A stretch of DNA of 5,486 nt. Source: Candidatus Desantisbacteria bacterium CG1_02_49_89 (GTDB lineage: Bacteria; Desantisbacteria; UBA1551). The notes under the pieces were generated by a model. The model had not been told where the DNA came from and did not search any database. It saw only the letters and a program-made list of their open reading frames with translations. Position 1 is the stretch's first letter. Each line of letters begins with the position of its first letter. Positions 4,187 to 5,188 of the stretch are shown in pieces. Made by a program: the position numbers and the translations under genes. The DNA lies in NCBI GenBank assembly GCA_001871075.1, contig MNUP01000064.1, positions 1 through 5,486 of the forward strand. The letters are read 5' to 3'.

Positions 4187-4195
4187 GGTAGATTG

Positions 4196-4231
4196 AAGTG
4201 GTAGAAAGTGGTGTAAAAGGGAGGGAAGTGG
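4196..4231 (+). promoter_or_regulatory. MraZ-type operator: 10-bp-phased direct repeats
   Basis: AAGTGG occurs at 4196, 4206 and 4226, and a degenerate AAAGGG fills the phase at 4216, so four boxes repeat exactly every 10 bp between the -10 box and the mraZ start. MraZ proteins are known to bind short G-rich direct repeats spaced one helical turn apart upstream of their own gene (TGGGN with 5-nt gaps in Escherichia coli; AAAGTG-like boxes in Mollicutes). Autoregulation by the downstream MraZ is therefore the natural inference. Confidence 0.8.
4219..4224 (+). promoter_or_regulatory. Ribosome binding site of mraZ, embedded in the operator
   Basis: GGGAGG (4219-4224) lies 8 nt before the GTG at 4233 and selects this GTG as the start. 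It coincides with the degenerate third operator box, which probably explains why that box reads AAAGGG instead of AAGTGG. Confidence 0.75.
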
Positions 4232-4232
4232 A

Positions 4233-4679
4233 GTGTTCTCCGGCGAATATTCTCATGCTATTGATAAGAAAGGCAGGCTGATAATACCCTCCAGGTTCAG
4301 GGAGATCCTGACTGAAAGGTATGAGGAAAAGTTCATAATGACCAAGGGACTTGATACCTGCCTTTTGCTTTATCCGGCTGACGAGTGGAATGAACTTGAG
4401 AAAAAAATGAAGGAAGTTTCCACTGTCACCAACCCAAGCGCGCGCGCTTTTAAAAGGTTTATGATCGCGGGCGCGATAGAATGCACTGTTGATAAGCAGG
4501 GCAGGATAATGATCCCTTCAAACCTGCGCGTGTACGCCCAGATAACAAGGGATGTTGTGATAACCGGAAATCTGGAAAAGGTGGAGATCTGGGCAAAAGA
4601 GAGATGGCAGGAATACTGGAAAGCCTCCAAGCCGATCGAGGAGCTTGCCAGGGAGATAGGGGAGGATGTAAAACTATAA
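4233..4679 (+). CDS. mraZ: Transcriptional regulator MraZ
   Basis: A 148-aa DNA-binding protein with two SpoVT/AbrB-like MraZ half-domains. Each carries the signature DKxGRxxIPSxxR: DKKGRLIIPSRFR at residues 11-23 and DKQGRIMIPSNLR at 87-99. The start FSGEYSHAIDKKGR is typical of the family, and the length fits the usual 140-150 aa. MraZ forms ring oligomers that bind repeated boxes ahead of its own gene and controls the division and cell-wall (dcw) cluster. GTG is the start, supported by the ribosome binding site at 4219-4224. The gene has its own strong promoter and phased operator. The oddity is downstream: rsmH (mraW) normally follows within tens of bases, but here an 8-bp tandem array begins at 4681 and no gene follows to the window end. 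Confidence 0.96.
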   Translation: MFSGEYSHAIDKKGRLIIPSRFREILTERYEEKFIMTKGLDTCLLLYPADEWNELEKKMKEVSTVTNPSARAFKRFMIAGAIECTVDKQGRIMIPSNLRVYAQITRDVVITGNLEKVEIWAKERWQEYWKASKPIEELAREIGEDVKL

Positions 4680-4680
4680 A

Positions 4681-4715
4681 CGTGTCAACGTATCAACGTG
4701 TCAGAGTGTCAGAGT
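4681..4715. repeat. 8-bp tandem repeat array, copy 1
   Basis: Four octamers, CGTGTCAA (4681), CGTATCAA (4689), CGTGTCAG (4697) and AGTGTCAG (4705), are followed by AGT. The array starts 2 nt after the mraZ stop codon. The same unit, count and terminal AGT recur at 5011-5045. Confidence 0.9.
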
Positions 4716-4733
4716 AGGTTCTAACTAAAAAGT

Positions 4734-4750
4734 CCCGCCTCATCGGCGGG
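4734..4750 (-). terminator. Terminator-like hairpin on the minus strand
   Basis: CCCGCC (4734-4739) and GGCGGG (4745-4750) form a 6-bp GC stem with a 5-nt loop. Read on the minus strand, it is followed after two bases by five T (4731-4727). No minus-strand gene in the window would use it, so it may simply be a repeat half-palindrome. Confidence 0.35.
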
Positions 4751-4843: not shown

Positions 4844-4878
4844 ATTGTAAATTGTAAATTGCAAATTTTAAATTGTAA
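4844..4878. repeat. 7-bp tandem repeat array, five units
   Basis: ATTGTAA at 4844 and 4851, ATTGCAA at 4858, ATTTTAA at 4865 and ATTGTAA at 4872 run without gaps. It is very AT-rich and sits just before pseudoknot-like element A. Confidence 0.9.
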
Positions 4879-4894
4879 AAAACGGAATACATAC

Positions 4895-5008
4895 TAACTC
4901 AAATACATATCCGCCGCGAATTACTCTTCAAGGGTCCGCATTCACCTTTTCACGCTTGGGCGGATTCATCGATACCTTTACCGCGGACCCGTCCCGCTCT
5001 TTTCAGAT
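4895..5008. other. Pseudoknot-like structured element, copy A
   Basis: Two inverted-repeat pairs are interlaced. TCCGCC (4910-4915) matches GGCGGA (4959-4964), extendable to 7 bp by A4909-T4965. GGGTCCGC (4932-4939) matches GCGGACCC (4983-4990). The order 5' S1, 5' S2, 3' S1, 3' S2 is H-type pseudoknot topology with gaps of 16, 19 and 18 nt. TAACT lies 11 nt before CCGCC, and GCTCT and CAGAT lie after the last strand, all shared with copy B. Weaker nested TCCGC/GCGGA pairings are also possible in this copy. It may be an RNA, a DNA cruciform or a mobile-element remnant; strand and function are unknown. Confidence 0.5.
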
Positions 5009-5010
5009 AC

Positions 5011-5045
5011 AGTGTCAACGTGTCAGCGTATCAACGTGTCAAAGT
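5011..5045. repeat. 8-bp tandem repeat array, copy 2
   Basis: AGTGTCAA (5011), CGTGTCAG (5019), CGTATCAA (5027) and CGTGTCAA (5035) are followed by AGT. It matches the array at 4681-4715 in unit, copy number and ending, and lies between elements A and B. Confidence 0.9.
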
Positions 5046-5071
5046 AACCGGCTAAACAGGCCAAACCGGCA

Positions 5072-5188
5072 TAACTGATACTATACTCCGCCTTAGTTAC
5101 GACTTTCTGGGCCCGCTTGCCCCCTTAAGCAAAGACTGGCGGACTACACTTGCCCTTCTGCGGGCCCTTGCTCTACATAACTACAGAT
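5072..5188. other. Pseudoknot-like structured element, copy B
   Basis: This has the same architecture as copy A. TCCGCC (5087-5092) pairs with GGCGGA (5138-5143), and GGGCCCGC (5109-5116) pairs with GCGGGCCC (5160-5167), with gaps of 16, 21 and 16 nt. TAACT is again 11 nt before CCGCC, and GCTCT (5170) and CAGAT (5184) follow. Relative to A, the fourth pair of stem 2 changes from T-A to C-G on both sides, while the loops have diverged strongly. A small TTGC/GCAA stem (5117-5120, 5129-5132) can form inside loop 2 in this copy only. Confidence 0.5.

Follow-up and report, generated by a model that had tools for sequence, protein, structure and literature searches.

The antitoxin RNAs of type III toxin-antitoxin systems (ToxI and CptI) are built from near-identical repeats of 34-48 nt with short loops and adjoin a toxin gene. 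In HDV-like ribozymes, the 5' strand of P2 begins no more than about 2 nt after the 5' strand of P1, and the P3 hairpin stands directly before the 3' strand of P1. The boxes of integron attC sites are nested and end in RYYYAAC and GTTRRRY. The locus described here carried two copies, A and B, of an element with two interlaced stems, and the duplicated element was confirmed to be real and beyond chance. The window, which is the whole stretch of DNA analysed, was a complete contig of 5486 bp from a 2.48-Mb draft genome in 150 contigs, with an assembly completeness of 93.5%.

Architecture and conservation of the two copies

Copy A extended from TAACT to CAGAT at positions 4895-5008, and copy B extended between the same two blocks at 5072-5188. 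The copies were 177 nt apart (from 4895 to 5072), with about 60 nt between the modules. Both showed the block order TAACT, 10 nt, TCCGCC, 16 nt, GGGYCCGC, 19 nt (A) or 21 nt (B), GGCGGA, 18 nt (A) or 16 nt (B), and GCGGRCCC. In copy A, TAACT (4895-4899) was followed by the 5' side of stem 1, TCCGCC (4910-4915), which was complementary to GGCGGA (4959-4964), and by the 5' side of stem 2, GGGTCCGC (4932-4939), which was complementary to GCGGACCC (4983-4990). In copy B, TAACT was located at 5072-5076, the two sides of stem 1, again TCCGCC and GGCGGA, at 5087-5092 and 5138-5143, and the two sides of stem 2 at 5109-5116 (GGGCCCGC) and 5160-5167 (GCGGGCCC). The order and spacings given in the original prediction agreed with these exact positions, and its stem 1 could be extended to 6 bp (TCCGCC/GGCGGA) in both copies, with a seventh A-T pair possible in A (4909/4965). 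Stem 2 consisted of 8 bp in A and B. The core from TCCGCC to GCGGRCCC measured exactly 81 nt in each copy (4910-4990 and 5087-5167), and the interval inside stem 2 was constant at 43 nt because the 2-nt difference in loop 2 was offset in loop 3. The spacing from TAACT to TCCGCC was also fixed at 10 nt. GCTCT (4996-5000 in A, 5170-5174 in B) and CAGAT (5004-5008 and 5184-5188), which had been listed as shared blocks as well, were present in both copies but at different distances (5 and 2 nt for GCTCT, 3 and 9 nt for CAGAT), so these two could be chance 5-mers. The open reading frame check revealed no supported frame in the region that explained the blocks. A covariance model built from A and B (R1) scored the copies at 99 and 100 bits, and a loop-masked model (R2) scored them at 53 and 52 bits, respectively.

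The interlacing of stems 1 and 2 was borne out by the letters, since all 14 crossed pairs were Watson-Crick in A and all 14 were in B. When the partners were slid by 1-3 columns, the pairing fell from 100% to 29-54%. The three-block pattern occurred twice in the real sequence and not once in 200 dinucleotide shuffles. Between the copies, 13 of the 14 pairs were identical letter for letter, and one pair of stem 2 carried a double change from T-A to C-G, with the C at 5109-5116 and the G at 5160-5167 of copy B; the single compensatory change that had been predicted was therefore verified on both sides. It had been called modest evidence and turned out weaker than that, as the covariation score from one double change in two sequences was equalled by 238 of 500 shuffles. 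Two sequences provide no statistical power for covariation. All four boxes in A contained a TCCGC core, and the T-to-C change of box 2 was mirrored in box 4 (A to G) and absent from boxes 1 and 3, which favoured a relation of pairing partners over that of a shared core.

The three loops measured 16, 19-21, and 16-18 nt. Their divergence, described earlier as almost complete, was confirmed: the summed alignment score of the loops of A against B equalled that of shuffles (p 0.49). With the loops randomised and 13 of the 14 pairs unchanged, the letters of the stems had been conserved too. This conservation exceeded what selection on pairing alone predicts, under which several compensated changes would be expected; it would fit RNA helices that a partner binds, but also recognition boxes in DNA. 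The claim of selection on structure was thus only partly supported: the crossed pairing, the double change, and the diverged loops held up, but 13 pairs never varied and the two copies had no third copy or relative beside them. The composition of the loops, a bias that was noticed post hoc and was independent of the stems, was unusual on the plus strand, where 72 of 106 positions were pyrimidines (68% in each copy, p 0.0003; 49% in the rest of the intergenic DNA) and only 11 of 106 were G (10%, p 0.0001). On the minus strand, the loops were rich in A and G and poor in C, and an A/G-rich, C-poor composition is usual for the unpaired parts of structured RNAs. The word AAGG on the minus strand stood at matching positions of loops 1 and 2 in A and in B (p 0.005, post hoc), which we regarded as a lead and not as a claim. 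The complementarity of the loops to the sampled genome was limited to matches of 10-12 nt, as chance predicts.

Genomic setting and search for relatives

The contig contained an AIR-synthase-type gene (window start to 996), a CCA-adding-type nucleotidyltransferase gene (1160-2776), a 420-aa gene without a name, and mraZ (4233-4679, plus strand), which adjoined the twin elements. The PolyA_pol match of the nucleotidyltransferase was split in two, and between the parts of the head domain lay a stretch of some 50 in-frame codons rich in palindromes (1415-1570). Words related to this stretch (TCTTCGAAAAGCCC and GGGGCTAAAGCCCC) recurred at other places in the genome, among them non-coding DNA near L275 4470, so a mobile palindrome appears to have been inserted into this coding gene. 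Rickettsia palindromic elements are a described case of palindromes inserting in coding genes. Upstream of mraZ, three AAGTGG repeats at 4190-4235 were observed, which resemble MraZ boxes for autoregulation. The usual operon partner and neighbour of mraZ is rsmH. In the assembly, which is 93.5% complete, no match to rsmH rose above the Pfam cut-off. Some of the cell-division cluster is therefore probably missing, lost in the gap after the contig, which ended 298 nt past B.

Copies A and B lay within about 800 nt of non-coding DNA 3' of mraZ, a region that was rich in repeats. Octamer arrays (GTGTCAAC/GTATCAAC) flanked A on both sides, at 4679-4717 and 5012-5046, and arrays of this type matched at about 40 places in the genome. 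The spacer between the copies (5009-5071), composed of the octamer array GTGTCAAC (5012-5042 within the spacer) and an inverted repeat AACCGGC...AAACCGGC, was not part of the element. The intergenic region also contained a heptamer array, and five other short arrays were counted there. Elsewhere, short arrays of other kinds (TGTAAACT, ATTGTAA, and TGAATTA) were arranged as inverted pairs and created many apparent crossed stems. A MITE-like repeat began 67 nt past B and ran to the contig end (5255-5486), with a unit of about 166-170 bp and the start of a second tandem copy. It matched more than 40 places in the genome, many of them at contig ends, which indicated that this repeat fragments the assembly. 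A Y1/IS200-like transposase gene of 160 aa, which by its size would be of the REP-associated type, was located at L275 3766-4248 on the minus strand, next to a 60-bp double palindrome repeated in tandem about four times (L275 4260-4475).

The search of Rfam 15 with the whole window on both strands returned only three chance matches, none of them at 4895-5188 even with E up to 5, in agreement with the earlier statement that no known RNA family was recognised in the element. The covariance-model search that had been proposed as a check was also carried out, and R1 recovered A and B and no third copy in their own 2.48-Mb genome. R1 gave no match in one other genome of the phylum and three weak matches (E 0.03-0.1) in 385 other genomes, which were rejected as relatives since they lacked the crossed stems, lay in coding-looking DNA, or both. 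The composite pattern with three mismatches allowed found only A and B in the same genome, and R2, applied to 644 kb (26% of the genome), recovered the two copies (52-53 bits) without any further credible match. A structure-only scan of 644 kb revealed eight other GC-rich crossed stems, all with different letters, where one to five would be found by chance. The sequence at L271 6363, also 81 nt in total, was rejected as a third copy because it was a hairpin repeat with unrelated letters. Whole-element blastn matched only the octamer array elsewhere in the genome and found nothing in 58 other genomes, phages, or plasmids. Pattern scans of viral sequences and genome collections yielded GC-rich chance matches, at least 120 in one scan; the 120 listed there all lacked a stem-2 partner within 40 nt, and a further six from another scan lacked stem 1. 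For two of the scans this covers the matches listed, and relatives may exist beyond them. Nothing matching the element was found in the papers searched. Since hardly any of the phylum has been sampled, this absence of relatives carries little weight.

Folding, strand, and interpretation

On the plus strand, the stem stacking sums were -34.6 kcal/mol for A and -36.7 kcal/mol for B, compared with nested optima of -21.6 and -30.3 kcal/mol, which made the pseudoknot energetically plausible once the usual penalty is applied. In the nested ensemble on this strand, stem 1 dominated in A (pairing probability 0.8) and stem 2 in B (0.99). Copy B folded better than its shuffles (z -2.76), whereas neither strand of A showed such an advantage (z -0.44 and +0.45). 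On the minus strand, A folded otherwise, and both stems had low pairing probabilities. Thermodynamics would therefore slightly favour the plus strand for the element. The loop composition and a terminator-like hairpin favoured the minus strand; this hairpin, CCCGCCGATGAGGCGGG followed by ACTTTTTAGT, was located at 4750-4734 on that strand and would be downstream of A and B if they were read from it. Two terminator-like sites were found where 0.8 were expected by shuffling. The promoter scan identified weak A/T-rich matches only. These fell at 4844-4879 of the minus strand and, in that orientation, downstream of both copies; no convincing promoter was found for either copy.

We tentatively favoured the reading that A and B are pseudoknot RNA elements with long loops, arranged in tandem after mraZ and before the missing remainder of its operon. 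We infer that the element is transcribed, forms the pseudoknot, and acts as RNA; what is shown is its architecture, its duplication, the complete crossed pairing of both copies, and the divergence and compositional bias of the loops. The two copies would then be diverged descendants of one structured nucleic-acid element, and each module may be a small RNA that folds as a long-loop H-type pseudoknot. Its helices would carry conserved information in their sequence as well as their pairing, so a protein or a partner nucleic acid may read them, and its loops would be free in sequence and kept G-poor on the plus strand and thereby single-stranded. Kept stems with free loops would suggest that the helices, rather than the loops, are what is recognised. 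If read from the plus strand, the pair would belong to the mraZ operon as an intercistronic element; if read from the minus strand, it would be a separate small RNA that ends near 4734. Were it an RNA, mraZ, the regulator heading the cell-division gene cluster, would have a structured element as its neighbour, in a phylum for which hardly any genomes exist. A bolder proposal, which we considered a long shot, is that the element belongs to a new class of scaffold RNA from this little-sampled phylum, with sequence-fixed helices and freely varying, strand-biased loops. Each tandem module would share the conserved scaffold but display single-stranded segments of its own, and the pair would lie in the cell-division cluster's first operon.

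Among the rival explanations, the most probable was that A and B are non-functional debris, the remains of a local duplication in an intergenic region rich in palindromes and arrays, where common GGCGG/CCGCC arms look conserved as they are recurrent words of the genome. We judged it somewhat unlikely, although this palindrome- and array-rich background left it a substantial share. TCCGCC was about twice as frequent in the sampled genome as expected (543 against 272), whereas GGGTCCGC was not over-represented (16 found and 16 expected). A repeat family, CCCGCC N9 GGCGGGTCCGCC N9 GGCGGA, with five copies in 644 kb, shared some letters of the element. Crossed stems at the same size limits gave, through arrays, 464 matches (overlapping ones included) against 44-68 in Markov controls, and the five other arrays beside A and B agreed with such an origin; however, GC-rich stems with these loop sizes were left at only the eight other places in the 644 kb. 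A neutral duplication would also have kept loops and stems equally, but only the stems survived, and the total length was exact.

A function at the DNA level appeared unlikely to us. It would make the four TCCGC-type boxes of each copy (two forward and two inverted, 21-27 bp apart) sites recognised by a DNA-binding protein or by a recombinase/transposase; the spacers between them would be neutral. The survival of letters and not merely of pairing, the core common to all four boxes in A, and the nearly fixed distances, with the first, second, and fourth boxes identically spaced in A and B, were consistent with such sites, but the third box shifted by 2 bp and the change in box 2 was mirrored in box 4 only. 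Mobile short repeats were abundant in the genome, as seen from the MITE after B and the Y1 transposase beside tandem palindromes; yet inspection by eye revealed neither a terminal inverted repeat nor a target duplication around A and B, no further sites were found in the genome, and the strand bias of the spacers was left unexplained.

Comparison with known systems

That a known RNA class or ribozyme (HDV-like, tmRNA or RNase P pseudoknot, riboswitch, or type III antitoxin repeat) had been missed was very improbable, because, although type III antitoxins do contain tandem repeats that form pseudoknots, Rfam showed no match at the element, the gap between its 5' strands exceeded that of HDV-like ribozymes, and its long repeats had unrelated loops and no toxin gene after them within the contig. 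Like the type III antitoxin repeats, A and B would be tandem H-type pseudoknots in non-coding DNA, but their cores were 81 nt long, and no toxin gene was found on either strand in the 298 nt between B and the contig end. This class, which requires short, near-identical repeats, was rejected for two copies 177 nt apart with unrelated loops. The two interlaced helices were similar in size to those of HDV-like ribozymes; however, the stem-strand gap was 16 nt in both copies against 0-2 nt, and A had no hairpin in loop 2 at the place of P3. Together with the lack of an Rfam match, this led us to reject an HDV-like ribozyme, which the original prediction had already excluded on the length of the gap.

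Integron attC sites resembled the element in having short, conserved inverted boxes with a freely variable interior, arranged in series, but the boxes of A and B crossed and the RYYYAAC/GTTRRRY letters were absent; with crossed boxes and ends without GTTRRRY, an attC site was rejected. A MITE or transposon end, the explanation that would have accounted for all blocks at once, was also rejected, since only two copies existed in the genome and the end blocks TAACT and CAGAT were not inverted repeats. The REP/RAYT palindromes and MITEs of the same genome, which encodes a Y1 (RAYT-like) transposase, shared the GC-rich GGCGG/CCGCC arms and the intergenic location, but they were simple hairpins in many copies, whereas A and B were crossed and numbered only two. 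The element was thus outside every tested family, a well-defined orphan with two occurrences in everything searched. If it is an RNA, its uncommon combination of letter-conserved stems and freely varying loops would mark a class of pseudoknots not yet described.
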